Origin: a virus
Virus record (IMG/VR): IMGVR_UViG_3300035487_000071
Location: 1 to 23,839 of that record
Length of the DNA stretch: 23,839 nt
Reading direction: 5' to 3' (one strand)
Positions 1,606 to 17,098 of the stretch are shown here, piece by piece (positions within the stretch are counted from its first letter, which is position 1; every line of letters begins with the position of its first letter). The position numbers and the translations under genes are program-made. Below the pieces are notes generated by a model, which was given only the letters and a program-made list of their open reading frames with translations, did no database searches and was not told the origin of the DNA.

Positions 1606-3024
1606 ATGGCAGTTTTTAAAAAGACAGATTTTATAAGAGACAACAGACCATATGCAGCCAAGAATGGTAAGTATGCTGGTAAGTCTCGTTTTGAAATTGT
1701 ACAATTAATGATAAACGCTAAAGAACGATTTGCTGAAGGTACTTCAGGTAGTGGTCGTAAACTAGAAGGTATCGCAATTGTATCAAAACCTAATACTTGG
1801 CCTTGTATTATTCAAGTCAAATCTTCTACAGGAAGTAAGATAGAAGAAGTATCACTTACAACAATCCATAAGTCAACACTATTTGGTGGTGGAGGTGGTT
1901 CAGGTGGTGGTGCAGCCGTGACAGCAATTACTGAAAGTGGACAATGTTATTATTGTTCATTAGCATTTAATGTTAAGAAAGGTCCAATAAAGTTAGCAGA
2001 CATTACAGACGCCAATATGGAAAAGGCTGCTCGTTATGTACAGGCGACCGTTGCTTACAAAGCATTTAAAGATAGAGTACCAGAAGATTGGATTGATAGT
2101 GGTACATTTCTAAAAACAGCAAACGAAATTTATAAAAAGTATTCATCAAGGGTTACTGGTGGTGTTTACTTTCATAGAGGCAGTACTTTTATGGGTAAAG
2201 TATATGCAGCTAAAAAAGAAGTAATTAGAATAGATAAACAAATGGCACAGAAAGATGGTAGAGCACCATTAGCGCCAGGTAGTTTTTCAGATGACAAATG
2301 GAATCCAGGTGATATATGGATGACTACAATGACACCAGGTTCGGATCCTCTTGCATTGTTTAAGCAAGATTGGGGAATATTAAATCAAGCAGTATTAGAT
2401 AAAGCAGGTAGATTAAATTCTCCTAGAACTTTCTTACTAGGTATCTCTCTAAAGAAACTAGGTAGTACCGTTAAGTTAGAAGAGTATAATGCTCCTGAAA
2501 GAGTGAAGTTAATATCACACGATTACAAAAGTCATAAATTTGGAAGCAACAACGATTTCTTTTCGTCAATTGATATGTATATGGGTATGGGTGGTGCGAA
2601 TGTTCAGTTTAGAGCATTTAATTCTACTTCAAGTTGGCAAGGAGAAATAAAAGGATTGAGTGCTGCCGGTGGTAAAATCGGTGCAGGTAATGTAAATTTC
2701 TATTGTGAGAAACACATACGAAAATCTATAGGTTTACAAGGTATAAGGTCTGGTTGGAAAGAAACACCAGGTAATCAAGTTAAGTTGAATGATATGTACC
2801 ACCTATATAAGAAGTATGTTAAGAATCCATTAGATAGTACTACTTTTATCAAACAATGTATTGACAAAGGTGGTAGTTTTATATTCTCAAAGAATATGTG
2901 TCTATTGTTTTTAGACACTATGATGACAGCTACAACAACACAAAGAAATAAAGTAAGTACAGATATTATAAAATATGCAGCTTCTAGTACTGATTTATCT
3001 TCTTTCTTTGTTAAGGTGTCATAA
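1606..3024 (+). CDS. Large conserved-type phage protein, unknown function
   Basis: This encodes 472 residues and is not recognised. It shows an N-terminal domain (about 1-92), a Gly-rich hinge (93-103, FGGGGGSGGG) and a large C-terminal domain. The C-terminal domain begins with a CYYC pair (114-117) and carries KWNPGDIW (231-238) and GISLKK (279-284). An Asp followed by a strand ending in xLK is reminiscent of PD-(D/E)xK nuclease cores, but this is only a visual likeness. Many Gly, Ser and aromatic residues and no membrane segment point to a soluble enzyme or virion protein. It has its own leader with a TTGACA promoter and is separated from the next gene by a late promoter. Confidence 0.7.
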   Translation: MAVFKKTDFIRDNRPYAAKNGKYAGKSRFEIVQLMINAKERFAEGTSGSGRKLEGIAIVSKPNTWPCIIQVKSSTGSKIEEVSLTTIHKSTLFGGGGGSGGGAAVTAITESGQCYYCSLAFNVKKGPIKLADITDANMEKAARYVQATVAYKAFKDRVPEDWIDSGTFLKTANEIYKKYSSRVTGGVYFHRGSTFMGKVYAAKKEVIRIDKQMAQKDGRAPLAPGSFSDDKWNPGDIWMTTMTPGSDPLALFKQDWGILNQAVLDKAGRLNSPRTFLLGISLKKLGSTVKLEEYNAPERVKLISHDYKSHKFGSNNDFFSSIDMYMGMGGANVQFRAFNSTSSWQGEIKGLSAAGGKIGAGNVNFYCEKHIRKSIGLQGIRSGWKETPGNQVKLNDMYHLYKKYVKNPLDSTTFIKQCIDKGGSFIFSKNMCLLFLDTMMTATTTQRNKVSTDIIKYAASSTDLSSFFVKVS

Positions 3025-3106: not shown

Positions 3107-4321
3107 ATGTTTAGTTTTAAAGGATATTCTAGCTCAGGTACGAACACACACCTTGAGCATTTAGAAGACGAAATAATTAATAACGGCCTGGCAGGCGGTA
3201 AGAACGCTATAGCGTTTCTACAATCTTTACAGAAAATGTTAACAGGTAATGTTAGCAATAAAGTAAATGTAACCGTTAAGTGGGATGGAGCTCCTGCGAT
3301 AGTATGTGGAACTAATCCTGAAAACGGCAAATTCTTTGTCGGTACAAAATCTGTATTCAATAAAACTCCTAAAATCAATTACACTTCAGCAGACATAAGA
3401 AAGAATCACCCAGGTGGTGTTGGTCCAAAATTAGAAGTTGCATTAAGAGAACTAAAAAAATTAGGTATAAGAGGCATTGTCCAAGGTGATTGTCTCTTTA
3501 CTAATGAAGATAAGAAAGTGAATAACATTGACGGGCAATCAATGATTACCTTTACTCCTAATACTATAACATATGCTATGCCTGTTTCGAGTGCGGTCGG
3601 TAAAAAGATTGCTCGTGCTAGAATGGGCATAGTGTTCCATACACAATATGTTGGTGACAGAATGGATAGCCTAAATGCTAACTTTGGTTATGTTAAAGGA
3701 ATCAGAAGTAGTAGTGTGTGGGTACCAAGTGCAGAATACAAAGACACTAGTGGTAGTGCAAGTTTCAATCGTGCAGAAGTTTCAGCGTTCAACGCTCAGT
3801 TAAGAATGGCACAAGGTAGTTTACAAAAAGCAGGGCCTATGTTAAATGAGTTTAATAGTAATGACGAGTTAAGTGTAGGTTATAAAATTAAAACATATTT
3901 CAATAGTATCGTTAGAGGTACACAAGGTATGGGTAGTGTTAAATCACTAGTAGATGGTTTTGAACCATACTATACAAGTTTCATTGATAATGAAATAACA
4001 AAACGAAAAACAGAAAAAGGTAAAGCACCTTACATCATTGCAAAAGAAAAGAATATAAAATTTATTCAAAGAAATAAACAATCATTATATTTTGCTATTG
4101 CAACATATGTTACCTTACAGAATTGCAAAAACATTTTAGTACGAAAAATAGCACAGATACAATCTATCGGACACTTTTTAAAAACTGATACAGGTTTTAA
4201 GGTAACAGCACCTGAAGGTTATGTTGCAACAGATAAGATTGGTAATGTAGTTAAACTCGTAGACAGATTAGAATTTAGTAGAGCAAACTTTACAATTGCT
4301 AAAGATTGGGTGAAAGGATAA
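3107..4321 (+). CDS. Ligase-like covalent nucleotidyltransferase candidate (DUF6267-like)
   Basis: This encodes 404 residues. The HLEHLEDEI start and long conserved blocks resemble the DUF6267 family of marine T4-like phages, which I recall as uncharacterised. The order of blocks fits the lysine nucleotidyltransferase fold of DNA/RNA ligases: motif I-like KWDG with candidate nucleophile Lys58, a GIVQGDCLF strand (123-131) where motif III sits, a MGIVFHT strand (173-179) like motif IIIa, PEGYV (369-373) like motif IV (EGxV), and VVKLVDR with Lys383 like motif V. A helical insert separates IIIa and IV. RBS AAGGA precedes the ATG. It is the first gene of the operon. The ligase-fold reading is inference; substrate (RNA, DNA or other) is unknown. 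Confidence 0.75.
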   Translation: MFSFKGYSSSGTNTHLEHLEDEIINNGLAGGKNAIAFLQSLQKMLTGNVSNKVNVTVKWDGAPAIVCGTNPENGKFFVGTKSVFNKTPKINYTSADIRKNHPGGVGPKLEVALRELKKLGIRGIVQGDCLFTNEDKKVNNIDGQSMITFTPNTITYAMPVSSAVGKKIARARMGIVFHTQYVGDRMDSLNANFGYVKGIRSSSVWVPSAEYKDTSGSASFNRAEVSAFNAQLRMAQGSLQKAGPMLNEFNSNDELSVGYKIKTYFNSIVRGTQGMGSVKSLVDGFEPYYTSFIDNEITKRKTEKGKAPYIIAKEKNIKFIQRNKQSLYFAIATYVTLQNCKNILVRKIAQIQSIGHFLKTDTGFKVTAPEGYVATDKIGNVVKLVDRLEFSRANFTIAKDWVKG

Positions 4322-4322: not shown

Positions 4323-4922
4323 ATGGATACCTTTAAACAACACCTATTTAATAATTTGATGGAAGCCAAACAAACAAGAGTTGTTATTATGGGTGGACCA
4401 GGAAGTGGTAAATCAACTTATAGTGAATACATTGTAAGACACTTTGGTATTAAACATATTTATCCTGGTGGATTATTAAGAAAAGAAATTGAGAACGGTG
4501 GTCCTGAAGGACAGAAGATTAAAGATTTATTAGACCAAGGTAAATTTGCACCTAATGAAATAGTTTTAAATTTAGTTAAGAAAGCACTACAAGACAAAGG
4601 TGCTTCAAAAGGTTATGTGTTAGACGGTTATCCTAGATATATGCAACAAGTAAGAGATATGGAATCAAATGGTATCACTTATGATGTTGTTATATACCTT
4701 GATGTGAGTAGTGAAGAAGTTATTAGAAGACTTACTAAGAGAGGAAGAAAAGATGATAAGCCAGATATTATTAATGATAGAATTGGGTTATATAAAAAAG
4801 AAACCGGTCCCGCCATTGAACATTTTAAAAAGAGACCTGGGTTTGTTTCTGTTAAGGCAGAAGGAAAAGAGCCTGGCGATATTGCGAAAAACATTATTAA
4901 GGAGATAGAAAATGCAATTTAA
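4323..4922 (+). CDS. adk: Adenylate kinase-like nucleoside monophosphate kinase
   Basis: This encodes 199 residues. Adenylate kinase transfers phosphate between ATP and AMP. Visible landmarks are the P-loop GGPGSGKST (24-32), an NMP-binding stretch (YPGGLLRKEI), DGYPR (101-105), LDV strand (126-128) and a short LID with RRLTKRGRKDD. The Zn-binding LID insertion is missing, so it is the short type. About 16 residues precede the kinase core (MDTFKQHLFNNLMEAK). This extension is dispensable for the fold, resembles the T4 capsid-targeting sequence and holds LME|A, a match to the prohead protease site. The gene starts two bases after the upstream stop, so it is translationally coupled. Confidence 0.88.
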   Translation: MDTFKQHLFNNLMEAKQTRVVIMGGPGSGKSTYSEYIVRHFGIKHIYPGGLLRKEIENGGPEGQKIKDLLDQGKFAPNEIVLNLVKKALQDKGASKGYVLDGYPRYMQQVRDMESNGITYDVVIYLDVSSEEVIRRLTKRGRKDDKPDIINDRIGLYKKETGPAIEHFKKRPGFVSVKAEGKEPGDIAKNIIKEIENAI

Positions 4923-5229
4923 TGAATACCAAACTCTAGCTGCAAACACAGCAATTTATCCACACGCAAGTAAGGTAACTTATCCTGCATTAGGATTATG
5001 TGGTGAAGCAGGTGAAGTCGCAGAAAAAGTTAAGAAGAGTATTAGAGACGGTGCAAGTCCTACATTTAAAGAAGATATGAAAAAAGAATTAGGTGATGTG
5101 TTATGGTATATATCAGCACTTGCTAGAGATTTAGATATTGATTTAGATACAATCGCACAAATGAATTTACAAAAATTAAAAGATAGACAAGAAAGAAACC
5201 AAATACAAGGAAGCGGAGATAACCGTTAA
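4912..5229 (+). CDS. mazG: MazG-like nucleoside triphosphate pyrophosphohydrolase
   Basis: This encodes 105 residues. MazG-type enzymes hydrolyse NTPs or (p)ppGpp-like nucleotides to monophosphates. The all-alpha Mg-binding motif is present: GEAGEVAEK (31-39, Glu32 and Glu35) and ELGDVLWY (59-66, Glu59 and Asp62). The C-terminal QERNQIQGSGDNR tail is typical of the short phage form. RBS GGAG (4901-4904) lies inside the end of the preceding gene and the two reading frames overlap by 11 bases. Short MazG homologues are widespread in marine T4-like phages, where a role in altering host nucleotide pools has been proposed. Confidence 0.9.
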   Translation: MQFNEYQTLAANTAIYPHASKVTYPALGLCGEAGEVAEKVKKSIRDGASPTFKEDMKKELGDVLWYISALARDLDIDLDTIAQMNLQKLKDRQERNQIQGSGDNR

Positions 5230-5232
5230 GTA

Positions 5233-5907
5233 ATGAAAACTTTTAAACACATAATACAAGAAGGCGTTTACGACCCAGGTATATTTAAAGCGTTCTTTTT
5301 AGCAGGTGGTCCTGGTTCTGGTAAGTCTTATGTTACCAATAGAACAACTGCTGGTATGGGTTTAAAATTAGTTAATTCAGATGTAAGATTTGAAAATTAT
5401 TTAAAGAAGGCTGGTCTATCATTAAAAATGCCTGACCGTGAAGCAGACAAAAGAGACCCATTAAGAAATAAAGCAAAGGTAGTCACAGGCGACCAGATGG
5501 ACTTATATGTTAGAGGTAGATTAGGTCTTGTTATTGACGCCACAGGTAGAGACTATGACATTATTAATAAACAACGAAGTATGTTAAGAATGTTAGGTTA
5601 CGATACTTATATGATGTTTGTAAATACAAGTTTAGATGTTGCATTAGAAAGAAATAGAACAAGAACTAGAACCGTGCCTGTAGATATTGCAACGAAGAGT
5701 TGGAATGTTGTACAAAGTAATATAGGTAGATTTCAAAATCTATTTGGTACAGGTAGTATGATTGTAGTTGATAACAATAATGCAAGTGAAGATACACTTA
5801 ACAAAGTTTACACAAGAATTAGAGGACTCGTTAGACAACCTGTTCAAAATTATGTTGCGAAAAAGTGGATGGAACGGGAACTAGCGAAGAAAAGAAATGC
5901 CAGATAA
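5233..5907 (+). CDS. P-loop kinase, polynucleotide-kinase or zeta-toxin like
   Basis: This encodes 224 residues. Walker A is GGPGSGKS (25-32). It is followed by VNSD, a candidate substrate or Mg ligand strand, then GLVIDATG, like the Walker B-side strand of zeta/PNK kinases, and an Arg-rich lid (ERNRTRTRT). The layout fits the kinase clade that phosphorylates polynucleotide 5' ends or small molecules; the substrate cannot be read from sequence. The N-terminus MKTFKHIIQE|GVYD has Glu10 and Gly11 exactly where the T4 internal-protein propeptide is cut. The start is 3 bases past the upstream stop and the end overlaps the next gene by 11 bases. Confidence 0.82.
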   Translation: MKTFKHIIQEGVYDPGIFKAFFLAGGPGSGKSYVTNRTTAGMGLKLVNSDVRFENYLKKAGLSLKMPDREADKRDPLRNKAKVVTGDQMDLYVRGRLGLVIDATGRDYDIINKQRSMLRMLGYDTYMMFVNTSLDVALERNRTRTRTVPVDIATKSWNVVQSNIGRFQNLFGTGSMIVVDNNNASEDTLNKVYTRIRGLVRQPVQNYVAKKWMERELAKKRNAR

Positions 5908-8824
5908 CTTTCAAAAGAAACATAGAATGGACTATGTTAAGGAACTATTAAAGAAGTGCAAGTCTGTAGCAGAAGACTTGAATGACTTAACACACCCTAA
6001 AGTTTCTACTAAACCTGTACAGAATATTGTAGGTGACTGGAAGAAAATTGATGTTAAAGCACCTTCTAAAAATGATAGTCCTGAAACTAAAAAAGAATTA
6101 GATATGATGTCTGAACTATTTACACAAAGAAATAGTGCAGTAAAAGAAAGTATAAAGAACCACGATACAGATACATTTTATGGTATTGAAAAATACTTAA
6201 CTGCTAATAATTTAGAATATGATACAAAAGATATATCTGAATTAAAGAAAGCAGGTAGTGGTGTAGTTAGACATTACAAAAACTTATATCAAAGACCAAG
6301 ACCATATGAACTTGCAAAAGAAATGAATATGGATTTTGATAGTATGGAATTAATTTCTGATAGTATGAAGACACCAGCATATCCTGCTGGTCATAGTCTA
6401 CAAAGTAGATTGATTGCAGAATACTATGGTAAATTATATCCTAAACATAAAGATAATCTAATAGAACTTGCTGACGAATGTGGTTATGGTAGAGTAGTTG
6501 CCGGTTGGCACTATCCGTCTGACCATACAACTTCTGTAAAGATTGCAGATGAGTTAATCAATATGGTAGATATTCAGGAAAGTATTATTGACATTCCTAG
6601 AAAAACATATGCACCTGCTGTATTTGATAACGCAGATACAAATAATCCTAAGATGAAAGCAAGTGTAGTAAAACAAATACAAGACCAAATTAAAGTATTT
6701 GAAAAAGAATTTCCAGTTATCAAGTATGGTTTGATTGGTTCTATTCTAACACATAGATATAGAAATGACGCAGACCTAGACATCAATGTATTATTTGATG
6801 TACCTGAAAGTGAAAGAGTTGCAGAAAGAGAAAGACTATCTTTAGAATTTCTTTCATCAAAGAATCCAAATAACATACAAGGTAAACTAATACCTGGTAC
6901 AAAGCATCCTATTAACTATTACTTTGTAACCGATGAAGCAACATATAAAGACCAAGAGAAAAAAGCAGACGCAGTATTTTCAATTACAAGAAATGTATTT
7001 GTTAAAAGACCTGAAGATTTTGCTTTTGATATTGATGTTTATATTGCTGACTTCAATAAGAAGGTACAAGAAATAGATGTAGTCAAAGGTGAATTAAAAA
7101 GAGACATTGTTGACTATGACGAATTAAAAGAATTAAGTCCTAACGACATAGAAAACTTACAAGCAAGAGTAGAAAGTAAGTTAGAAGAAATAGAAAATGA
7201 TATAGAGGACATAATAAAGATTGGTGACGGTGTTGACGCAGAAAGAAGAAGTGCGTTTGATACAGATATGTCGCCAGACGAAATCAGAAAGTATAGTATT
7301 AAAAACAGATTACCTAAGAATGTAATCTATAAGATGTTAGAGAAATATCATTACATTACTTTCTTTAAGAAGTGCAAGAAGATTTTAGATGACGGTATAG
7401 TTACCGATAAAGAAATTGATAGTCTAAAAACTGAAGCAGTAGGCACACCTAAAAAACATATCGCATTTACATTTGGTAGATTTAATCCACCAACGATAGG
7501 CCATGAAAAGTTAATTAACAAAGTGGCTGCTGTAGGTGCAAATGATTATCTCATTGTGCCAAGTGGTTCGCAAGACCCAAAGAAAAATCCATTGAAAGTT
7601 GCTGATAAGATTAGCATTATGAAATCAATGTTCCCTAGACACTCAAGCAAGATAAAACAAATTGCAGGTGCAAGAACAGCTATTGAAGTCATCAATAAAT
7701 TAAATGGAAAAGCAAATCAAATAACAATGGTAGTTGGTTCAGATAGAGTAAGAGAATTTGAAACACTACTAAACAAGTACAACGGAGTACAAGCAAGAGG
7801 AACTAATTACGAGTTTGATAAAATCAATATCGTATCTGCTGGCGAAAGAGACCCAGACGCTGAAGGCGCTATGGGAATGTCAGCAAGTAAAATGAGAGCT
7901 GCGGCTCAATCTAATGACCTTAAATCTTTTAAACAAGGTCTACCTACATCTTTTAGAGACAAAGATAAACTATTTGGATTAATTAGAAAAGGAATGAACT
8001 TGGCTGCAGGTTATACTGGACCAGGTATCGGAACATATCAACCTATCGCTAGTGTTGAAAGCTTTACTAAATGGCATTTAAGAGACTTGTATATCCGTGA
8101 ACAACTATTTAACATAAACGATAGTGTTGAAGACCAAGAACAAGAGATTACAGGTAAAGTAATTCGTAGAAGTACAAACTATGTTGTATTAGAAGACAAT
8201 AATTCTAATTTACATAAGTGTTGGATATGGAATTGTATTCCACATGGCACAATAATAGATGAAACTAAATTACACGAAATTAACTTAAATGTAGACTATG
8301 GTTTTGAGGCAGTATCAGAAACGGAAGTCAAAATGAATGAAGAATATGGTAAGAAATTACCACAAGATAAGGATGTGAAAAGTAAAGACGGTTCACAACC
8401 TAAGAAGTATTACAAAGATGTAAAGAAAAATGATAAAGAGAAGAGAGCAAAACACTTTTCAAAACAAAAATATAAGAAGTCGGATAACGACAAAGACTAC
8501 AAAGTTGCACCAGGAGATAAAGACGCAAAGACTACTACTAGTGTACATACGAAGAAGTATCAACAGATGTATGGTAAAGAATCCTATGAAGTAGGTAAAG
8601 AATATGCAGACCATACTAAAAGAATGACCCCTGGACAGAGTGCAGAAACTAGTCCAGAGACAATAAACCAAGAAGATATACAGAAATGGGCTTCTTCAAG
8701 TGAGACTATTGATAAATATAAGAAGAGATACGGAGAAGAGTATCAAGTAGAATTGAATGACGCTGTGAAAAAAATGGAGGAGAGATTGAAGATACAATCT
8801 TTTAAAGAATATGTTAAGGTTTAG
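5897..8824 (+). CDS. PAP2 phosphatase / nucleotidyltransferase / NMNAT-like fusion
   Basis: This encodes 975 residues with at least three enzyme-like domains. (1) A PAP2 acid-phosphatase domain (about 80-225) with the full signature: K128-x6-R135-P136, PAGHS (163-167) and R199-x5-H205-x3-D209. (2) A polymerase-beta-type nucleotidyltransferase core (about 250-400): GS (281-282), D293-x-D295 and a later DID (378-380). (3) An HxGH-type nucleotidyltransferase resembling NMN adenylyltransferase (about 518-700): GRFNPPTIGH (527-536), VVGSDR (612-617) and MSASKMR (661-667). A small beta-rich segment (752-785) and a Lys-rich disordered tail follow. The start at 5897 is supported by coupling to the preceding gene; Met11 (5927) is an alternative. 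Substrates are unknown. Confidence 0.85.
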   Translation: MPDNFQKKHRMDYVKELLKKCKSVAEDLNDLTHPKVSTKPVQNIVGDWKKIDVKAPSKNDSPETKKELDMMSELFTQRNSAVKESIKNHDTDTFYGIEKYLTANNLEYDTKDISELKKAGSGVVRHYKNLYQRPRPYELAKEMNMDFDSMELISDSMKTPAYPAGHSLQSRLIAEYYGKLYPKHKDNLIELADECGYGRVVAGWHYPSDHTTSVKIADELINMVDIQESIIDIPRKTYAPAVFDNADTNNPKMKASVVKQIQDQIKVFEKEFPVIKYGLIGSILTHRYRNDADLDINVLFDVPESERVAERERLSLEFLSSKNPNNIQGKLIPGTKHPINYYFVTDEATYKDQEKKADAVFSITRNVFVKRPEDFAFDIDVYIADFNKKVQEIDVVKGELKRDIVDYDELKELSPNDIENLQARVESKLEEIENDIEDIIKIGDGVDAERRSAFDTDMSPDEIRKYSIKNRLPKNVIYKMLEKYHYITFFKKCKKILDDGIVTDKEIDSLKTEAVGTPKKHIAFTFGRFNPPTIGHEKLINKVAAVGANDYLIVPSGSQDPKKNPLKVADKISIMKSMFPRHSSKIKQIAGARTAIEVINKLNGKANQITMVVGSDRVREFETLLNKYNGVQARGTNYEFDKINIVSAGERDPDAEGAMGMSASKMRAAAQSNDLKSFKQGLPTSFRDKDKLFGLIRKGMNLAAGYTGPGIGTYQPIASVESFTKWHLRDLYIREQLFNINDSVEDQEQEITGKVIRRSTNYVVLEDNNSNLHKCWIWNCIPHGTIIDETKLHEINLNVDYGFEAVSETEVKMNEEYGKKLPQDKDVKSKDGSQPKKYYKDVKKNDKEKRAKHFSKQKYKKSDNDKDYKVAPGDKDAKTTTSVHTKKYQQMYGKESYEVGKEYADHTKRMTPGQSAETSPETINQEDIQKWASSSETIDKYKKRYGEEYQVELNDAVKKMEERLKIQSFKEYVKV

Positions 8825-9350
8825 TGATTATGCAGATAAGATAACGGTATCGTTAAACTATCACATTGAGAATAAGATACCTTTAGCAGAGAACATATAT
8901 AGAGTACATAGCGAAGAGTTTTATGCCTTGTTTAGAGAAGCAAGACATATGTTTAATGAAGGTCTATTACAATGCGAAAGTGAATGGGATAGAACTTTAT
9001 TAGAAACAGACATTGGAGAATTTGCTAAATATGAAGGTATGAAAGTACCTTTAGATTGTCCGATACAAGAAGAAGACGAAAAGAATCCGCCTTTAAATAA
9101 ACCAAAAAAAGGTGGACCTAAAAAGTTTTATGTTTTTGTAAAAGATGGCGACAAGATTAAGAAGGTTACTTGGGGAGACACTACTGGTTTAAGAGTTAAG
9201 TTAAATGACAAAGAAGCCAGAAAAAACTTTGCTGCTCGGCACAATTGTGCTAGCAAAACAGATAAAACTACACCTGGATATTGGGCGTGTAATTTACCTA
9301 GATATGCAAAGTCATTAGGACTTACAGGTGGCGGTAACTTTTACTGGTAG
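8811..9350 (+). CDS. Conserved phage protein with DUF5872-like C-terminal module
   Basis: This encodes 179 residues. The N-terminal half (IPLAENIYRVHSEEFYALF...ETDIGEFAKYEG) and the C-terminal module (105-171, KKFYVFVKDGDKIKKVTWGD, then ARHNC and GYWACNLPRYAKSLGL) resemble blocks repeated across marine T4-like phage proteins. The second is close to what I know as DUF5872. Two Cys (146, 160) flank a basic, aromatic patch that could bind metal or nucleic acid, but no activity is known. The gene overlaps the preceding stop by 14 bases. Confidence 0.75.
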   Translation: MLRFSDYADKITVSLNYHIENKIPLAENIYRVHSEEFYALFREARHMFNEGLLQCESEWDRTLLETDIGEFAKYEGMKVPLDCPIQEEDEKNPPLNKPKKGGPKKFYVFVKDGDKIKKVTWGDTTGLRVKLNDKEARKNFAARHNCASKTDKTTPGYWACNLPRYAKSLGLTGGGNFYW

Positions 9351-9358
9351 GAGTAGTC

Positions 9359-9661
9359 ATGTATAAATGGTTGCAAAACGAGTATGATGTCTTCTATGAT
9401 GAGAGACCGGATGAAACAAAAACGGATTCTTTCTTTCAAAGAAGTTTTGGACAAGACGCCAAAGAAGATAGTTTAGTTTGGCACAAAGACAGAAGAGATA
9501 GAACGATAAGAATTATTGCTGGAGTTAATTGGAAATTACAAATGGATAATAAACTCCCAGAGATTATGAAAATAGGAGATGTTTTTGAAATACCGAAGGA
9601 AACATTTCATAGAGTACACAAAGGTGATGGTAGACTAATAATAGAAATAAAGGAATTTTAG
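9359..9661 (+). CDS. Small cupin-like protein
   Basis: This encodes 100 residues and looks like a single small beta barrel of the RmlC/cupin type. LVWHKDRRDRTIRII (about 38-52) resembles the first cupin motif, and GDVFEIPKETFHRVHKGDG the second, with a conserved-looking HR pair. Cupins of this size often bind a metal and a small ligand, but the two His here are fewer than the usual three, so catalysis is not assured. RBS GGAG lies 8 bases ahead of the ATG. It is in the same operon as the enzyme-like genes before it. Confidence 0.65.
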   Translation: MYKWLQNEYDVFYDERPDETKTDSFFQRSFGQDAKEDSLVWHKDRRDRTIRIIAGVNWKLQMDNKLPEIMKIGDVFEIPKETFHRVHKGDGRLIIEIKEF

Positions 9662-9675
9662 GAGAGAAATATAAG

Positions 9676-11610
9676 ATGACTAGATATACACAAACAATGA
9701 GAGAAGCACTGGAAGAGGTGTGGGCAAACGATATTCAGATTGACGAAGGCAAGATGAAAACTATCGCTACTCTTTTTGACCAAGGTAAATCAGCTGAAAC
9801 AATAGCAAAACAAATGGGTTTGCCTGTTGCAACCGTTAAAACTATTCTTGGTGAAGAAGACATCACAGAAGAACAACTGGTTGAATTTACAGACCAACAA
9901 ATTAAAAGACTGAAAGCACAATATGCTGACCTTGCAGGTAAAAGAATATCTATCGCAAGAGCAAATCAGTTAAGAAATATTTTTGATAAAATTGCAGACG
10001 CTCAACTTCCTAAACTCTTCAAAGCAGACATTCCTTTTATTTCAGCAATGGCAGTTAGTCGTATGATATCTAAAGGTATCAAAGTACCACAAGGTGTAAA
10101 ACTTTCAGCATTTGAAAACAAGTCTTGGGACGAAGTTATTTTAGAATATACTGAATATGTAGAGTATATGGCAAAGAACGGCGGCGAGGCTGGTAAAATT
10201 GCAAATATGTTTAAAGGTAAAACAGGTGGTGGAGAAATTCACAAATCTGGTTCAGAAGTTAGAATTGATAGTGCAAAAGATGTAGAAGCAATCCATAAAA
10301 AAGTAATGGATAACTTCCCAGACACTAGAATACTAACTAAAGAAGAAGACGATTTACCAGGCAATCTTGGATTACAAGAAGGCACAGGAACTATTAAAGG
10401 TTTCACAAACGAAAAAGAGAAATCAAATATGGTTTCACTTGCAAAACAACACGGTCTAAAAGTATCAGATGTACCTGGTGGTATTGAACTAAAAGGTAAC
10501 ATGAGAAAGATACTAGATATGCAATTAGCAACTAGGTCTCACTTAAAGACTGAAAGTATTGAAGAAGCAGTACTTGCCGGAAGAGATTACAAATACTCTG
10601 GTAAAGGTGCTGTTGAAATCAGTAAAGCAAATTTCGCAAAAATTAATAAAGACTATAAGAAGACTACACCTGGACAAGAAATGATGGTAGTACTAGACCC
10701 GAAAACACACGGTACGGTATTAGCACCAGTTAAGTTTACAGAAGAAACAGAAAATGGTGAAGTTGAATCTGGTAAGATTAAGTTTAAAGACTTGAAGAAA
10801 GAGAAGAAAGATGAACCTAAAGTTGATGTAGACGCTCTTAAAGACCAGATACATATGTTAAAAACAAAATTAGAAAACGAAAAGAATAAAGCAATCAAAC
10901 CAGAACCAAATCCTGATACAGGAGAAGTTCCATTACAAGTTGGATTAGCACAAAAGATATTAAGAGACAAACAAAAGAAAGAAGTAAAAGAAGAAACATT
11001 AGTAGAATTTACTTCACAACAAATCAAAATGGCATACGGTATTGCAAACGATAAGAGATACAAAGGTGGCAATATGACAGGTGCTGTTAAAGCAATTGAG
11101 AAACTTGCAAAAGGATTATCAGACCATCCAGATGTTCAAAAAGTACTACAAAGAACTAACGAAGGTTTTGCTTCAGACGCTCAGAGAAAGGCTGCTTTCG
11201 CAAATGGTTATAAAGAACCTAAGAACAAAAATGAAGAAGACGCTTATGATAAAGATGATGAGAAACCTAAGACTAAACCTAAGAAGAAATTTAAAGAAAC
11301 TTATGGTAAGAAGTTTGAGACTAACACATCGGTTGAGAAAAAAGTAAAAACAGAAAACAAAAATCATCCTGCAAAAGAAATGTATGAAGCGATTGAAGGA
11401 TTAAAAAACAAATCAGAAAAATCTGGAATGCCATATGGTATCTTAAAGAAAGTATTTGATAGAGGAATGGCTGCTTGGAAAGGTGGACACAGACCTGGAG
11501 CTAGTCAACACCAATGGGCGTTTGCTAGAGTAAATTCATTTATAACAAAATCCTCAGGAACATGGGGCGGTGCAGATAAAGATTTAGCTGCAAAAGTAAA
11601 AGGAAACTAA
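9676..11610 (+). CDS. Multi-module phage protein, candidate processed virion protein
   Basis: This encodes 644 residues built of phage-specific modules. An HTH-like stretch (27-60, AETIAKQMGLPVATVKTIL) is followed by LVEFTDQQIK (68-77) and a helical module (85-135). An extended middle, a SIEEAVLAGRDYKYSGKG block (294-311), and a Lys/Glu coiled segment come next. A second LVEFTSQQIK (442-451) leads into a helical repeat. It ends with a DUF5824-like module (566-625, GMPYGILKKVFDRGMAAWK...HRPGASQ). The N-terminus MTRYTQTMRE|A resembles the capsid-targeting layout, and IDE|G (22-25) and IEE|A (295-298) also match the T4 prohead protease consensus. No enzymatic motif is seen. It may be a structural or injected protein. 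Confidence 0.72.
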   Translation: MTRYTQTMREALEEVWANDIQIDEGKMKTIATLFDQGKSAETIAKQMGLPVATVKTILGEEDITEEQLVEFTDQQIKRLKAQYADLAGKRISIARANQLRNIFDKIADAQLPKLFKADIPFISAMAVSRMISKGIKVPQGVKLSAFENKSWDEVILEYTEYVEYMAKNGGEAGKIANMFKGKTGGGEIHKSGSEVRIDSAKDVEAIHKKVMDNFPDTRILTKEEDDLPGNLGLQEGTGTIKGFTNEKEKSNMVSLAKQHGLKVSDVPGGIELKGNMRKILDMQLATRSHLKTESIEEAVLAGRDYKYSGKGAVEISKANFAKINKDYKKTTPGQEMMVVLDPKTHGTVLAPVKFTEETENGEVESGKIKFKDLKKEKKDEPKVDVDALKDQIHMLKTKLENEKNKAIKPEPNPDTGEVPLQVGLAQKILRDKQKKEVKEETLVEFTSQQIKMAYGIANDKRYKGGNMTGAVKAIEKLAKGLSDHPDVQKVLQRTNEGFASDAQRKAAFANGYKEPKNKNEEDAYDKDDEKPKTKPKKKFKETYGKKFETNTSVEKKVKTENKNHPAKEMYEAIEGLKNKSEKSGMPYGILKKVFDRGMAAWKGGHRPGASQHQWAFARVNSFITKSSGTWGGADKDLAAKVKGN

Positions 11611-11611
11611 T

Positions 11612-11929
11612 ATGTCATATTTAAAAAGTAAACCTGGTTCAGTTGAAGAAGCAATCACAGCTGCAGTAATGCAGGAGAAGTTGTCACCTAAACAACAAAA
11701 ACTAGACAAGAATAATAATGGTAAAATTGATGGTTCTGACCTTGCAAAATTAAGAGCAAAGAAAGAAGATAGTCATACAGATGATAATGCTAAGAGTGTT
11801 TTACCTAAATCACAAGACCCTAAAGACCCAATGAACATCAAAACTAAAGAACCTGAAAAGAAAACTACTATGAATGCTAGTAAATCAGACAAAATTGATG
11901 TTAATCCTAAGATAGATTACGCAAATTAA
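11612..11929 (+). CDS. Small protein with EF-hand/dockerin-like calcium loop
   Basis: This encodes 105 residues. Residues 32-43, DKNNNGKIDGSD, give Asp, Asn, Asn, Lys, Asp and Asp at loop positions 1, 3, 5, 7, 9 and 12, with Gly at 6 and Ile at 8, which is the EF-hand/dockerin calcium-loop layout. A short helix (LAKLRAK) follows. The rest is hydrophilic and Lys/Asp/Pro rich and probably disordered. SVEEAITAAV (10-19) echoes SIEEAVLAG of the preceding protein. The start lies right behind the upstream stop. It ends at the AAATTAATTCA block opening promoter cassette B. Confidence 0.7.
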   Translation: MSYLKSKPGSVEEAITAAVMQEKLSPKQQKLDKNNNGKIDGSDLAKLRAKKEDSHTDDNAKSVLPKSQDPKDPMNIKTKEPEKKTTMNASKSDKIDVNPKIDYAN

Positions 11930-11953
11930 TTCATCTTTTTGCTCATTTTATGC

Positions 11954-11982
11954 TTGACAAGGCCATAATAATGTGTTATTAT
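11954..11982 (+). promoter_or_regulatory. Host sigma70-like extended -10 promoter (cassette copy B)
   Basis: TTGACA (11954-11959), 17-base spacer, TATTAT (11977-11982) preceded by TGT. A perfect dyad, ATAATAA (11965-11971) and TTATTAT (11976-11982), has a TGTG loop and covers the -10, so a repressor could bind here. It sits between late-type genes and should give the HAD gene at 12013 its own early or host-dependent expression. Confidence 0.75.
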
Positions 11983-12012
11983 AAAGCATAATGAAAAAAG
12001 GATATACACACT

Positions 12013-12609
12013 ATGAAATTTAAAGAACTCCGAGCTGATGTAATACATCAAGTCAAAAAACTATCACTTACAAACGAAGCATTTAGGCAAGACAACAAGA
12101 AGTTGCCTCGTATCTATTGTGATATGGATGGAGTGCTATGTAATTTTGAACAGGCTGCACAAAAAGCAGTTAAAATGCCTCTATCACAATGGGCACAAGA
12201 ACCTAAAAAAGTATTTAAAACAATAAGAGATAAGTGGCAACCGATAATGCAGACTAAAAATTTCTGGTCTACATTACCTTGGAATCCAGGTGGTCAACAA
12301 CTATGGTCTTTCATTAGTAAACATGACCCACACATCTTATCTGCTTATGTCGAACAGACATCGGATCCTAGTTGTATTCCTGGCAAATCAAAATGGGCTA
12401 GAACCAAATTAGGTATGTCCGGCAGTAAAGTAAATTTAGTAAAAAGAAGAGAAAAGCAGAATTTTGCTAAAGTTGGTGGTATGCCAACAATTCTAATTGA
12501 CGACTATATCAAAAACATTAATCAGTTTAGAGCAAGAGGTGGTATAGGTATTCATCACACTAGTGCCGCTAAAACGATTTCTGAATTGAGAAAACTAGGT
12601 TTTAAATAG
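12013..12609 (+). CDS. HAD-family 5'-nucleotidase-like phosphatase
   Basis: This encodes 198 residues. All four HAD motifs are visible: I DMDGVLCNF (Asp37 nucleophile, Asp39 acid/base), II ILSAY (Ser110), III Lys125 in IPGKSKWA, and IV LIDDYIKN (Asp163, Asp164). Its length and the cap between motifs I and II resemble 5'(3')-deoxyribonucleotidases, which remove phosphate from dNMPs. This would recycle nucleotides alongside the kinase and MazG genes upstream. The start is supported by AAAAAAGG upstream. Residues 1-30 are an extra N-terminal helix. It has a private host-like promoter and a late promoter follows it. Confidence 0.85.
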   Translation: MKFKELRADVIHQVKKLSLTNEAFRQDNKKLPRIYCDMDGVLCNFEQAAQKAVKMPLSQWAQEPKKVFKTIRDKWQPIMQTKNFWSTLPWNPGGQQLWSFISKHDPHILSAYVEQTSDPSCIPGKSKWARTKLGMSGSKVNLVKRREKQNFAKVGGMPTILIDDYIKNINQFRARGGIGIHHTSAAKTISELRKLGFK

Positions 12610-12616
12610 TCAATCT

Positions 12617-12624
12617 TATAAATA
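12617..12624 (+). promoter_or_regulatory. T4-type late promoter TATAAATA
   Basis: This exact late octamer is intergenic, 48 bases upstream of the structural gene at 12672. The leader after it contains a 14-base perfect palindrome. Confidence 0.8.
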
Positions 12625-12630
12625 TAAACG

Positions 12631-12658
12631 ATTAATCATTAAGTTAACTTAAATTAAT
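12631..12658. repeat. Palindrome in late mRNA leader
   Basis: The perfect 14-base palindrome TTAAGTTAACTTAA (12639-12652) is flanked on both sides by ATTAAT (12631-12636 and 12653-12658). It forms a long inverted repeat with a 2-base asymmetry, just ahead of the GGAG ribosome site. It could be an mRNA-stabilising hairpin or a protein-binding site. Confidence 0.5.
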
Positions 12659-12671
12659 AAGGAGAGATACT

Positions 12672-13250
12672 ATGAGTTTATGGGGAGCAAGTTCCAGTGA
12701 TGAAAGTAAACCTAAAAATCTTACTACAACTGAAAAAGCAGAAGTTTTTGCTAATCAAAAAGGTTGGGTTGTAAGAGCAGGGTCTACAAGAACTGGTAAC
12801 GGAAACACAGCCGCTACTCCAGAAGTACTAGTCGCATTAGGTGGTCTATCAACAGCATTAGCTGCTGCTACGATTTCATCTACTGAATTTGATATATCAT
12901 CATTTGATGTATCAGCAGGTGGTACTTTATCGGTAACGGTAAACTATAACGAACAAATCACGGTTGCAGGTTCGCCTACAATCGCAGTAACCAATTCACA
13001 AGCAGGCGGTGGTTCAGCTGCGTCATTAACATTGACGAAATCAGCTTCTACTGCTAACACGGTAACATTTACACTAGTTGTAGGTGCTGCTGGTTCAACT
13101 ATATCAGCAGATGATATACTATCTATCGGGGCTCAAAATGTCTTGTTAGCGGGTGGTACTATTACTGATACGGTTGCTACAACTGCTGCTGCTGTCGCAG
13201 TATCAGCTGCTGCTGGTGCCGGTGCAGGAACAATTACTGCTGTTGCGTAA
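12672..13250 (+). CDS. Virion structural-type protein, beta-rich
   Basis: This encodes 192 residues. The start MSLWGASSSDESKPK and NQKGWVVRAGSTRTGNGN are familiar from virion proteins of marine T4-like phages. The second half (from about 75) is Ala/Thr/Val/Gly rich with alternating strands (LSVTVNYNEQITVAGSPTIAV), like an Ig-like or decoration domain. No Cys, membrane segment or signal peptide is seen. It stands alone between a late promoter and a terminator, which fits a strongly expressed late protein. RBS GGAG lies 7 bases ahead. Its exact place in the particle is unknown. Confidence 0.7.
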   Translation: MSLWGASSSDESKPKNLTTTEKAEVFANQKGWVVRAGSTRTGNGNTAATPEVLVALGGLSTALAAATISSTEFDISSFDVSAGGTLSVTVNYNEQITVAGSPTIAVTNSQAGGGSAASLTLTKSASTANTVTFTLVVGAAGSTISADDILSIGAQNVLLAGGTITDTVATTAAAVAVSAAAGAGAGTITAVA

Positions 13251-13280
13251 TAGATAATAACAATAAAATTAAGAATATTA

Positions 13281-13306
13281 GGGGATCCGTTGTGGTCCCC
13301 TTTTTT
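13281..13306 (+). terminator. Rho-independent terminator
   Basis: GGGGATCC and GGTCCCC form a GC-rich stem (five pairs, one bulged T, two more pairs) with a short loop, followed at once by TTTTTT. It lies 31 bases after the stop of the gene at 12672. Confidence 0.8.
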
Positions 13307-13311
13307 ATTTG

Positions 13312-13319
13312 TATAAATA
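13312..13319 (+). promoter_or_regulatory. T4-type late promoter TATAAATA
   Basis: This exact late octamer lies five bases after the terminator T-run and 69 bases before the start at 13388. It restarts late transcription for the next operon. Confidence 0.8.
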
Positions 13320-13329
13320 GTGTTAATGG

Positions 13330-13369
13330 TGCGTATATGATGTACGCAGTAGTTTACCACAACTAGTGG
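13330..13369 (+). promoter_or_regulatory. Two tandem hairpins in 5' UTR
   Basis: TGCGTA (13330-13335) pairs with TACGCA (13343-13348), and CCAC (13357-13360) pairs with GTGG (13366-13369). Both lie between the late promoter and the GGAG ribosome site, which remains free. They may protect the late transcript. Confidence 0.4.
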
Positions 13370-13387
13370 AATTATAGGAGAACTAAA

Positions 13388-13837
13388 ATGGCAGACAAAA
13401 AGATTACAGCCTTAGACAATCTAGGCACATCATTGGCGGTAGAGGATTTATTCCATATTGTTGATGACCCCTCAAATACACCAATTAATAAAAAGGTAAC
13501 AGCGAAAGATGTTTTTAATAACATTCCAACTTTTATCGGATTGACATCAACTAGTGAAGCATTGACTTCTACTAGCACAGCGATTAATACAACATCAGCA
13601 ATTTCAGAAGTAGACCAATCTGGTGGTGCAACAGCACTTTCAATGGCAGATGGTACTAACGGAATGATTAAAACAATTATTGCAGTAGGTACTGGTGGTA
13701 ATTCCATCACTATCACACCATCTAATTTAAGAGGATATTCAACTATCGTTCTTAATGCAGAAGGCGAAACGGTAACTTGTTTATTTAAAAATTCTAAATG
13801 GAATGTAATTGCTAATCAAGGCGCTACAATCGCATAA
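13388..13837 (+). CDS. Virion/tail-fibre-like structural protein
   Basis: This encodes 149 residues. The N-terminal MADKKITALDNL...EDLFHIVDDPSNTPINKKVTAKDVFNN segment is typical of phage fibre and virion-surface proteins. The C-terminal part (about 95-149) is a small beta domain with STIVLNAEGETVTCLF and WNVIANQGATIA, also recurrent in phage structural proteins. The middle is Ser/Thr rich. It is the first gene of a late operon with a strong RBS GGAG and may be a trimeric surface protein. No receptor-binding tip or chaperone is visible here. Confidence 0.72.
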   Translation: MADKKITALDNLGTSLAVEDLFHIVDDPSNTPINKKVTAKDVFNNIPTFIGLTSTSEALTSTSTAINTTSAISEVDQSGGATALSMADGTNGMIKTIIAVGTGGNSITITPSNLRGYSTIVLNAEGETVTCLFKNSKWNVIANQGATIA

Positions 13838-13863
13838 TATAATTAATTTGAGGAGATAAAATT

Positions 13864-14106
13864 ATGGCTATATCACTTGGTTTAGTTGAGAAAGAATACA
13901 ATCAACTATTTAAAGAAAGAGAAACACTAACTGAAAGTGTTAACAAATTAGAAGGTGAACTCGCAAGTACAAAGTCTCGTTTAAATGCTTTGCACGGTGC
14001 AGTACAAGTACTAGAAAAGTTAATGCGAAAAGCAGATAGTGATTTGACATTAAGAGAAGCACAGAAAGAATTAAACCCTGTTGTAGAGGAAAAACAAAAT
14101 GGATAA
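13864..14106 (+). CDS. Small coiled-coil protein
   Basis: This encodes 80 residues. Heptad-like spacing of Leu/Val runs from about residue 8 to 60 (KERETLTESVNKLEGELAS, then LNALHGAVQVLEKLMRK), which predicts a coiled coil. No signal peptide or membrane segment is seen. RBS GAGGAG precedes the ATG. The stop overlaps the next small gene. It may be a scaffold-type or adaptor protein; function is unknown. Confidence 0.65.
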   Translation: MAISLGLVEKEYNQLFKERETLTESVNKLEGELASTKSRLNALHGAVQVLEKLMRKADSDLTLREAQKELNPVVEEKQNG

Positions 14107-14248
14107 AATTACAGAAAAGTCTAATACTTTACAGGAGATTTTAACGGTTAACCCTAATGAAGTTAATACTGAAAATGACCTTAATGAATTTGAAGAAGAT
14201 TTAGTACCTGGTACTAAAAAAGATAATAAAAAAGAAAAAGAGGAATAA
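14099..14248 (+). CDS. Very small acidic protein (49 aa)
   Basis: The ATG at 14099 overlaps the end of the preceding gene by 8 bases and the TAA at 14246-14248 abuts the next ATG at 14249. The product begins MDKITEKSNTLQEIL and ends in an acidic/Lys tail (KKDNKKEKEE). Tight coupling on both sides and full use of the gap support a real gene. No RBS stands out, so translation probably depends on coupling. Function is unknown. Confidence 0.55.
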   Translation: MDKITEKSNTLQEILTVNPNEVNTENDLNEFEEDLVPGTKKDNKKEKEE

Positions 14249-14671
14249 ATGAAAACTTTTAGAGAACACTTAAAAGAAGACAAGGTGGTAGGAACAGCTA
14301 CTTCAAACGCAGTAGAAGATAGTAATATCGGTACAGCGAATTTGAAAGACCCTAATGTACTTAAAAGAGTTAATGCCTTTGTTGGTTCGGTTGCAGATAT
14401 GGAATATATCAAACCACAACAAGCAGTTGATTCGTTAAGAGAAAAGTTAATGAGAATTGGTTTAGATATTTCACCTATGAAATTAGATGGTGACGCCGGT
14501 ACGGTAACTGGTGAAGTAAAACAATTCGGCGGTACTTACGGTAAAACAACTGAAACTAAGCCTGAAGATGTAGTAGTAGATAATGGACCTGGTATTGATA
14601 ACTTAAAATTAGAAGTTAAGTACGAAACATTGTCTAACGGTTCATCAAAGGTTTACGCTAAACTGAAATAG
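14249..14671 (+). CDS. Conserved-type phage protein with capsid-targeting-like N-terminus
   Basis: This encodes 140 residues. MKTFREHLKE|DKVVG matches the layout of the T4 capsid-targeting sequence (Phe4, hydrophobic 8, Glu10), although Asp11 replaces the usual Ala/Gly/Ser after the cut. The rest forms a compact domain with FVGSVADMEYIKPQQAVDSLREKL helices (about 48-72) and a beta-rich C-terminus (KLEVKYETLSNGSSKVYAKL). A virion-internal protein is a reasonable guess. It is coupled to the upstream stop with no gap. Confidence 0.65.
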   Translation: MKTFREHLKEDKVVGTATSNAVEDSNIGTANLKDPNVLKRVNAFVGSVADMEYIKPQQAVDSLREKLMRIGLDISPMKLDGDAGTVTGEVKQFGGTYGKTTETKPEDVVVDNGPGIDNLKLEVKYETLSNGSSKVYAKLK

Positions 14672-14681
14672 GCGTAAATTA

Positions 14682-15044
14682 ATGTTCAAACAGATAACCG
14701 ACAAGAACTGGTTATTGTATGCACAAAAGCATTATGATAATCCGACATTTGAAACTGAAAAAGAATTTTGGGATGATATAAAGAGATTTAAATATCTCAA
14801 AAGATTGTTTCGTAAATATGAAACTACGAGCCTATTAAAGATTAGGTTGGTAACAAATCATATTATCGTACTACAAAATGTTTTCGGTACGGATGCCTGT
14901 ATTACTTTATTGTTATATAAAAATGACACGAAGTATTGGCCTATCTTAAAGTCTGTTTTTAAATACCTAAACTATTTGTATCCGTCAGAGTTAGACGAAC
15001 TAACCGAAGACGAATATGTTAGACGGGAGTTAGAGAAACTATAA
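14682..15044 (+). CDS. Conserved-type phage protein, all-alpha, unknown
   Basis: This encodes 120 residues that are Lys/Tyr/Phe rich and helical throughout (FWDDIKRFKYLKRLFRKY, NHIIVLQNVFGTDACITLLLY). The layout resembles a family common in marine T4-like phages, near my memory of DUF7207, whose function is unknown. It ends with TAA sharing its last base with the next ATG. No signal peptide or true membrane segment is seen. Confidence 0.68.
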   Translation: MFKQITDKNWLLYAQKHYDNPTFETEKEFWDDIKRFKYLKRLFRKYETTSLLKIRLVTNHIIVLQNVFGTDACITLLLYKNDTKYWPILKSVFKYLNYLYPSELDELTEDEYVRRELEKL

Positions 15045-15637
15045 TGGCAAGCAGAGCAGTAGATTTATTAATAGCATATAGAGTAATTAAATTATTGGTT
15101 ACTCCATTTAAGAACCAAGCTGCGTTTAAGACAGGTATCATAGACGCTGACGGTAAAGTACTTAAACCATATAGACTATTAAAAACAGGTGCAGAGAAAT
15201 CATCTTACACCATGCTACATAGATTTGTATTCAACTTAAAAAGAATACTAGGTAAAGTAGGATTAGGTGGTAAGATAGGTTCGTTTGCTGTTGCTTTAGG
15301 TTTATTACTTAAAGAAGACAAAGAGTTTGCTGAAGACCAAGGTAAGAACATAGAGAGTACACTTGTTAAGATATTAAAAGAGAAGAACGAATTAGTTTAT
15401 TCTATGTCTCTTAATGAAGAGTATTTTACAGATTCAACTTTAAAGGTTGGAAGTTATCAATTAAAAGAAGAACTATTTACTGGCGAAGAATTTTTACCTA
15501 AAGGTACAGATGTCTTTACTATAGAAGAACTTAAACCAGATTCAACGGTGTTAGGTTTAGATATATATAAGATGAAGTACGGTAAAGATATGCAAGAAAT
15601 ATATGTTCCTGGAGACTATTTAGATGAGCGAAAATAA
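15044..15637 (+). CDS. Conserved-type phage protein, unknown
   Basis: This encodes 197 residues. The first 90 residues (VIKLLVTPFKNQAAFKTGIID..., then MLHRFVFNLKRILGKVGL) contain blocks I associate with a conserved protein next to virion genes in marine T4-like phages. The Gly-rich GLGGKIGSFAVALGLLL could insert in or lie on a membrane. The second half is an acidic beta-rich domain (STLKVGSYQLKEEL...FTIEELKPDSTVLG). The start overlaps the upstream stop and the end overlaps the next gene by 14 bases. Function is unknown. Confidence 0.68.
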   Translation: MASRAVDLLIAYRVIKLLVTPFKNQAAFKTGIIDADGKVLKPYRLLKTGAEKSSYTMLHRFVFNLKRILGKVGLGGKIGSFAVALGLLLKEDKEFAEDQGKNIESTLVKILKEKNELVYSMSLNEEYFTDSTLKVGSYQLKEELFTGEEFLPKGTDVFTIEELKPDSTVLGLDIYKMKYGKDMQEIYVPGDYLDERK

Positions 15638-16220: not shown

Positions 16221-16716
16221 TTGGAACGGATTATTAGACGCAATATTTTTACCACCAAGAAACTGGGTATTAAATAAAGCGCTAAAGTTTAAGTCAGATG
16301 ATTTAGATGATAGAGAAGTATCAATGTTATTAGATTGCAAAGTAGATGTTTATGACAACGGAAGAAATACAGCAACGATAACGGTACCAGCAAAATACAT
16401 AACAGACCTTGCAAGTGTACCAAGAATATGTTGGGCATTTATTGCTCCATTTGATGTTGCAAGAGCAGCTGTAATACATGACATCATGTACGAAAAGATT
16501 AATAGTGCATTTAAAGAAGGTATCATATCTACGAAGAAAGACCGAGAACTATATAGAAGTATAGCAGATAAGGTATTCAGACAAGGTATGGAAAATTCAG
16601 AACCTTCAGTTCCTAAGTGGAAAATAAAATCTGCTTACTATAGTGTGAGAATGTTTGGCCGTTGGGCAATCAACTCAAGCGCTCCACGAGGTGCGAAACC
16701 ACAGGCGAAGAAATAG
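16207..16716 (+). CDS. DUF1353-family protein
   Basis: This encodes 169 residues. The family core is plain: ITVPAKYITDLASVPR (58-73) and AAVIHDIMYEK (87-97, His91, Asp92, Tyr95), then RELYRSIADKVFRQGM. DUF1353 proteins occur often in phages near lysis or tail genes; no activity is established. The HDxxY-type core suggests a metal or catalytic site. It overlaps the preceding gene by 14 bases and opens the envelope-related cassette. A tail of SSAPRGAKPQAKK is basic. Confidence 0.85.
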   Translation: MKKSNWNGLLDAIFLPPRNWVLNKALKFKSDDLDDREVSMLLDCKVDVYDNGRNTATITVPAKYITDLASVPRICWAFIAPFDVARAAVIHDIMYEKINSAFKEGIISTKKDRELYRSIADKVFRQGMENSEPSVPKWKIKSAYYSVRMFGRWAINSSAPRGAKPQAKK

Positions 16717-16717
16717 T

Positions 16718-17094: not shown

Positions 17095-17098
17095 TAAT

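Follow-up and report, generated by a model that had tools for sequence, protein, structure and literature searches.

Several genes between gp41 and gp61 share an N-terminal leader

The IMG/VR contig IMGVR_UViG_3300035487_000071 comes from a T4-like marine phage, and all of its 23,839 bases were analysed here (the window in what follows). The window opens with the end of a DnaB-like helicase gene (gp41), includes the primase gene (gp61) and closes with the start of ribonucleotide reductase, the T4 gene names being assigned by analogy. Our subject is a short N-terminal leader on several proteins of the block between gp41 and gp61, and its likeness to the capsid-targeting sequences (CTSs) of the internal proteins (IPs) of phage T4. 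Genes and their families are named by the first coordinate of the window gene, and a slash marks the end of a leader. Two phages assigned to Kyanoviridae, HTVC008M (Pelagibacter) and Melnitz (Methylophilales), have a block of largely the same gene content and order; neither of their blocks contains a match to the adenylate kinase, and the polynucleotide kinase (PNK)-like gene of Melnitz is sited outside its corresponding block. A second contig, G002 (119,869 bases), is 99.3% identical to window positions 11774-23839 (12,066 bases) and extends beyond the window.

A preliminary description of the window had read five N-termini as CTS-like. All five are present in the sequence at their gene starts, and the observation that several window enzymes share a leader is confirmed (Table 1). 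The leader is 10 residues long in 5233, 14249 and 9676 and 14 residues long in 4323 (MDTFKQHLFNNLME/A). As the adenylate kinase models shown match the 4323 protein only from residues 16-20 onwards, its leader is an added one. The second half of the leader, which corresponds to the processing half of a CTS (hydrophobic-x-Glu), reads IQE in 5233, LKE in 14249, LME in 4323 and MRE in 9676, and is missing from 3107. Position 7 is occupied by I in 5233, H in 14249 and 4323, and T in 9676; it is F in T4 IPII and IPIII.

Table 1. Leaders, predicted sites and contrasting genes in the window
Feature	Position	Strand	Basis
CTS-like leader MDTFKQHLFNNLME/ of adenylate kinase (gene 4323-4922)	4323..4364	+	conserved in orthologs
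CTS-like leader MKTFKHIIQE/ of PNK-like (AAA_33) protein (gene 5233-5907)	5233..5262	+	Glu10, Gly11 conserved
CTS-like leader MKTFREHLKE/ of small protein of unknown function (gene 14249-14671)	14249..14278	+	36/37 orthologous N-termini pass matrix
Variant leader MTRYTQTMRE/ of protein with C-terminal DUF5824 domain (gene 9676-11610)	9676..9705	+	Glu10/Ala11 conservation
Fusion of PAP2 phosphatase, Pol-beta-type nucleotidyltransferase and cytidylyltransferase/NMNAT-like domain	5897..8824	+	
Putative 26-residue leader of the 5897-8824 protein, ending SVAE/DLNDLTHP	5897..5974	+	likeness to leaders in relatives
Predicted internal gp21 site IQE/SIIDIPR at the PAP2/nucleotidyltransferase junction of the 5897-8824 protein	6572..6580	+	invariant Glu
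DUF6267 protein with targeting-half-like MFSFKGY, no Glu; ligase-like motifs KWDG, EGYV, KLVDR	3107..4321	+	
MazG-like protein lacking the leader (internal contrast)	4912..5229	+	
Protein of unknown function without CTS; S-SCSM1 ortholog ORF90 annotated as virion protein	1606..3024	+	ortholog comparison

To quantify the leader, we used the strict N-terminal pattern M-x2-[FY]-x3-[LIVMF]-x-E, which 3 of the 32 window genes match (5233, 9676 and 14249). When residues 2-31 were shuffled, the mean number of matches was 0.034, and three were never reached in 20,000 trials. The pattern was also counted in 1,963 distinct open reading frames (ORFs) from 196 related IMG/VR loci and the window, many of which are orthologs of one another and hence not independent: it occurred at 104 N-termini, compared with 31 of 10,189 internal methionines, an excess of about 17-fold.

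The leader is conserved in diverged orthologs

A leader is retained by adenylate kinase orthologs with as little as about 45% identity (for example MKTFKQYFFE/A, MKSFKNFITE/A and MKTFLNFLLE/Q), and the distance from its Glu to the P-loop core is mostly 5-8 residues and up to 13. In the PNK-like family the leader ends in Glu-Gly directly before the core, the conservation of each of the two residues being 90% or more across an alignment of 33 sequences. Most 14249 orthologs start with MKTF[KR] and have Glu at position 10. Because it is conserved in diverged orthologs at a varying distance from the core, the leader, as judged from these alignments, behaves as a module and not as a domain.

To score leaders beyond the strict pattern, a matrix was trained on 53 marine leaders selected for Glu at position 10, with no T4 sequence among them. 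In this training set F4 is present in 43, position 7 is mostly I, H, Y or F, position 8 is hydrophobic or aromatic in 53/53 and position 9 is the freest. As training was restricted to Glu10, the matrix is blind to shorter or longer leaders such as HTVC008M MIPFILKE/G. ORFs open at locus edges and duplicate N-termini were removed before counting, and GenBank records were excluded from the family survey. With the tested family left out of training, distinct N-termini passed in 36 of 37 cases for 14249, 19 of 36 for the kinase and 23 of 52 for the PNK-like protein, only 41 of these 52 being the true start. Families outside the training set also passed: 15/46 for 5897 (a count that excludes three fusions beginning with a PNK leader), 18/38 for 8811 and 10/13 for a further small family. 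None passed among the controls gp41 (0/55), gp61 (0/7), 14682 (0/22), 13388 (0/31), NT5C (0/39) and DUF6267 (0/40); NT5C (12013) is thereby ruled out as a CTS bearer. UvsX, with 5 of 28 passing, is likely a false-positive class, and PTOX is a likely false positive in S-SCSM1.

The leader of 9676 belongs to a variant class, M[ST]RY..T[MF].EA, in which Glu10 is kept in 14 and Ala11 in 16 of 17 distinct leaders, and whose pattern starts at none of 10,378 internal methionines. The same variant also fronts four ORFs that cluster outside the 9676 family. A different conserved start, MSYLKSKPGS[VLI]EEA, marks the 11612 family (11612-11660); it is unlike a CTS and may be a third leader class, and as its Glu and the following residue vary we do not claim it as a CTS.

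The matrix retrieves the T4 internal proteins

When 64 T4 proteins were ranked by the matrix, IPI came first and IPIII and IPII, with equal scores, took second and third place (chance 2.4e-5). The set represents 64 of the 72 coding sequences (CDS) of the 60-108 kb stretch; omitted were two end-cut CDS, repEA, repEB and four alternative starts (three in gene 17, one in gene 21). In T4, mutagenesis assigns residues 4 and 7 to targeting and residues 8 and 10 to processing, CTS propeptides have 10-19 residues, and an Asp in position 10 prevents cutting and leaves targeting intact (PMC9026906). The likeness to T4 CTSs proposed in the preliminary description is therefore borne out by the ranking and largely by the mutagenesis positions, and the reading of the leaders of 5233, 14249 and 4323 as T4-type CTSs is largely supported by the sequence comparisons.

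A further proposal had been to look for a gp21-type protease in the same genome. The window itself stops short of that region, and the near-identical contig G002 encodes such a protease (Peptidase_S77, E=7e-36). Across 11 records an S77 protease was found in seven (G001, G002, G004, HTVC008M, Melnitz, S-CREM2 and T4), with no match in four other contigs of 61-99 kb, which are possibly fragments. T4 gp23 is cut at 65/66. At the corresponding place, leader-like sequences are present in gp23 of several records: SFLTE65/A66 in T4, GLLTE/A in S-CREM2, SFLAE/A in S-SCSM1, FLGE/I in HTVC008M and FMTE/T in G002.

A predicted internal site in the 5897 fusion

Gene 5897 had been overlooked in the preliminary description. 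In unfused orthologs, the nucleotidyltransferase core is mostly preceded by a leader, for example MRFKDYIKE/SIIDIPR. In the window and its near relatives a PAP2 phosphatase stands in front, and the junction still reads IQE/SIIDIPR, with FKE/ in other fusions. The junction Glu is invariant in 42 aligned sequences and is the same Glu that ends the leader of the unfused orthologs. Two relatives (L017 and L015) carry a leader of the form MPDNFQ...YVKELLK, like the one before PAP2 in L077, joined directly to the nucleotidyltransferase core. On this alignment evidence 5897 belongs to the tagged set and has a predicted internal cleavage site, at which a cut by gp21 would divide the fusion into two enzymes.

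The nucleotidyltransferase part models as a Pol-beta type; its best structure matches, AadA, MNT and CD-NTase, are weak (E ~0.005-0.1), and none is at E <=0.001. The last domain is cytidylyltransferase/NMNAT-like. The 5233 protein matches AAA_33 and zeta-toxin kinase models. PADLOC, run on seven proteins, returned nothing usable: 4323 was assigned to VakA, PDC-M51B and mad8, the nucleotidyltransferase to PDC-S09 and the other five to none.

The C-terminus of the 5897 protein (8795-8821), QSFKEYVKV, resembles the targeting half of a leader. Ends of SFKEY type number 18 distinct sequences in the 5897 family and one each in two other clusters; as this enrichment is almost wholly confined to one family, a general C-terminal tag is not claimed. 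The S-SCSM1 virion protein ORF93 ends in RTFKEFLEYIE.

The 3107 protein has a targeting-half-like start only

The DUF6267 protein encoded by 3107 had been described as carrying a weaker version of the leader. Its aromatic half holds up, as MFSFKG[FY] is conserved with F2, F4, K5 and G6 invariant in 38 relatives, but there is no conserved Glu. The DUF6267 orthologs of HTVC008M and Melnitz begin MYNDLLVE/D and MLTLINFSKYITE/D, unlike 3107, and those of S-SZBM1 and S-CRM01 lack a leader, their N-termini lying almost at the core. With no Glu and two leaderless cyanophage orthologs, 3107 is ruled out as a full CTS bearer.

Polynucleotide ligases and other covalent nucleotidyltransferases carry motif I, KxDG, and later EGxV...K. 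K58-x-D60-G61, E370-G371-x-V373 and K383 are invariant in the 38 sequences of the 3107 family, which also has a K-x-VDR motif, and by these motifs the protein appears ligase-like. Its structure model has a mean pLDDT of 70; RNA and DNA ligases recur among its matches at Z 5-6 (VIA), below unrelated helical entries at up to Z 8.4. Foldseek gave no match at E <=0.001 and sequence searches no PDB match with E below 0.5, and the term DUF6267 was not found in the literature searched.

Leader-bearing proteins in cyanophage virions

Published virion proteomes offered a comparison outside the window. The S-CREM2 virion proteome comprises 52 proteins (PMC10665884, Table 3). Four of the 219 S-CREM2 proteins match the strict pattern (a SAM hydrolase, an APH-like kinase, a cytidylyltransferase and one hypothetical protein), and all four are in the virion list (p=0.003). 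Five of the top six by matrix are non-structural or hypothetical virion proteins (p=1.3e-4). At a score of at least 6, 4/28 virion proteins not classed as structural, 0/24 structural and 1/167 undetected proteins were retrieved (Fisher p=0.0016).

Cytidylyltransferases have been detected in virions of S-SM1 (PMC3037559), S-SCSM1 (PMC9602691), S-SZBM1 (PMC9146016) and S-CREM2 (PMC10665884). They are orthologs of the last enzyme domain of 5897, and all four have a leader: MKKFSAFLNE/A in S-SM1, MKSFLQFLKE/A in S-SCSM1, MRFRQFIIE/A in S-SZBM1 and MKNFSSFLTE/A in S-CREM2. The S-CRM01 kinase, stated to be a virion protein in a citing passage of PMC10665884, begins MISFDQFLSE/K. Detection of orthologous or similarly tagged cyanophage enzymes in virions therefore supports a capsid-targeting role of the leader. 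In the available text of PMC9964418 the list of 14 S-CREM1 virion proteins does not name a cytidylyltransferase.

Two displaced tags were seen in the cyanophage records. The S-CREM2 Cas9-like virion protein (L202:7704-10313, minus strand) has PLRFASFMAE/AA after RW..WS.G, and S-CRM01 g128 (L206:4702-5253, minus strand), whose start is common to that protein, has LSLDSFIKE/AA after the same motif.

These comparisons covered 196 of 198 annotated HTVC008M features (two were cut by piece ends), 280 S-SCSM1 CDS (two piece-crossing CDS were omitted, one of them marked virion) and 62 S-SZBM1 CDS from two stretches only. The S-SCSM1 record marks 47 of its 280 CDS as virion proteins, compared with 45 in the paper (PMC9602691).

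A model of tagged head cargo and its alternatives

Overall, these data point to a model in which the block between gp41 and gp61 encodes a set of phage-head cargo proteins. The adenylate kinase, the PNK-like kinase, the 14249 protein and probably also the 9676 protein and the nucleotidyltransferase-cytidylyltransferase would each be made with a T4-type leader. By binding to the scaffold core, the aromatic front half would trap the protein in the prohead; a gp21 cut after hydrophobic-x-Glu would then free the mature enzyme, which would be injected along with the DNA. The same protease would split the 5897 fusion at the junction of phosphatase and nucleotidyltransferase as well, so that one precursor would release two enzymes. 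Taken as a whole, from T4-type leaders through gp21 cutting and packaging to injection with the DNA, we regard this explanation as likely. That the enzymes of this phage are cut, packaged, injected and active early is something we infer, and the packaging and injection interpretation of the preliminary description is, as a whole, partly supported.

Several observations weigh against this model. The 28 virion proteins of S-CREM2 not classed as structural, taken together, show no significant score shift (Mann-Whitney p=0.16), as would be expected if most of them are tail parts. In S-SCSM1, 1 of 47 virion proteins and 2 of 233 others pass (p=0.43), and in HTVC008M the enrichment in the block is marginal at best (2/22 versus 2/174, p=0.06; 0.06-0.14 over three thresholds), with UvsX, a likely false positive, ranking second by matrix. 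The S-CAM1 cytidylyltransferase has no leader, and the small proteins S-SCSM1 ORF30, S-SZBM1_191 and S-SZBM1_192, whose leaders are strong, are absent from the available virion lists. The authors of the S-CREM2 and S-SCSM1 studies allow that proteins expressed in the cell may be carried over into virion preparations (PMC10665884, PMC9602691). Among the window proteins, 9676 with its variant leader and 3107 without the processing-half Glu are the weaker cases. The expectation of A, G or S after Glu held in part only: the residue is G in 20 of 23 PNK leaders, but A in only 8 of 15 kinase leaders, and A, G or S in only 10 of 31 leaders of the 14249 family (distinct N-termini with Glu at position 10), in which D or H often stands at P1'.

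This last departure would fit a leader that takes the enzymes to a partner protein or to a phage structure other than the head, with a Glu that is not a protease site. We consider this improbable, as the same matrix retrieved the T4 IPs first, tagged proteins are among the S-CREM2 virion proteins, and the Glu is retained at the junction in fusions with an additional front domain. A low probability also attaches to leaders that target the head without processing or an injected function, serving in assembly or retained by chance. Targeting and cutting are separable in T4, as Asp10 shows (PMC9026906), and the 3107 family retains only the aromatic half; in four families (PNK, kinase, 14249 and nucleotidyltransferase) hydrophobic-x-Glu nonetheless persists, although its spacing from the core varies. 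That the likeness reflects chance or N-terminal composition is very unlikely. The matrix does have probable false positives with helical, Lys- and Phe-rich starts, such as UvsX and PTOX, but the excess over shuffles and internal methionines and the constancy of the leader across orthologs speak against it.

Within the head-cargo model, a bolder reading concerns what the cargo is for. Phage RNA repair sets combine a ligase, a PNK and an RlaP-type Pol-beta nucleotidyltransferase (PMC7824862), and the boldest reading is therefore a packaged repair kit. The head of marine T4-like phages would carry a pre-made nucleotide and RNA repair kit, comprising the ligase-like, PNK-like and adenylate kinase proteins, the Pol-beta-type nucleotidyltransferase and the NMNAT-like enzyme, as tagged precursors in part combined in a polyprotein split by the head protease, and would reverse tRNA and NAD damage by host defence before phage expression. 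We offer this as a tentative possibility, with the odds against it.

The leaders suggest that the virus carries ready-made enzymes into the host together with its DNA. A 2022 review proposed that CTSs may allow T4-like phages to package various proteins (PMC9026906). No account of capsid targeting in cyanophages was found in the literature searched, which covered few subscription papers and in which neither the leaders of these marine enzymes nor the internal site seem to have been described. For cyanophage virion enzymes that their authors could not distinguish from carry-over, a shared leader would supply a route into the head. It would also predict exact mature N-termini, and stored mass spectra could decide. 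If the leader is a head tag, head cargo, including candidate first-minute effectors and counter-defence proteins, would become readable from marine T4-like genomes.

Comparison with known systems

The edge of the block (1368-1540) has two tRNA genes, tRNA-Leu(TAA) and tRNA-Arg(TCT). Like phage RNA repair sets, the block combines ligase-like motifs, a PNK-like kinase and a Pol-beta-type nucleotidyltransferase; the available text of PMC7824862 makes no mention of such sets being packaged in virions. As in the window, the cytidylyltransferase of S-SCSM1, S-SZBM1 and S-SM1 lies between gp41 and gp61, whereas that of S-CREM2 precedes gp61 and does not adjoin gp41. The two kinases of the window have no match among all S-CREM2 proteins or in the S-SCSM1, S-SZBM1 and S-CRM01 blocks. 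The virion enzymes of S-CREM2, S-SZBM1, S-SCSM1 and S-SM1 have leaders of the same kind as those in the window, and the available text of PMC10665884, PMC9602691, PMC9146016 and PMC3037559 describes no targeting signal for them. A close parallel is with T4 IPI, IPII and IPIII, which are cut by gp21 and likewise have a leader of 10-19 residues with F or Y at position 4 and a hydrophobic residue two before the final Glu; T4 IPI starts with MKTFKEF, and in T4 as here the mature parts are unrelated. T4 IPs inhibit restriction enzymes of the GmrSD type (PMC12373910), whereas the tagged proteins here are largely enzymes. Unlike the T4 IPs, they also share one block, and one of them is a fusion with a predicted internal site.

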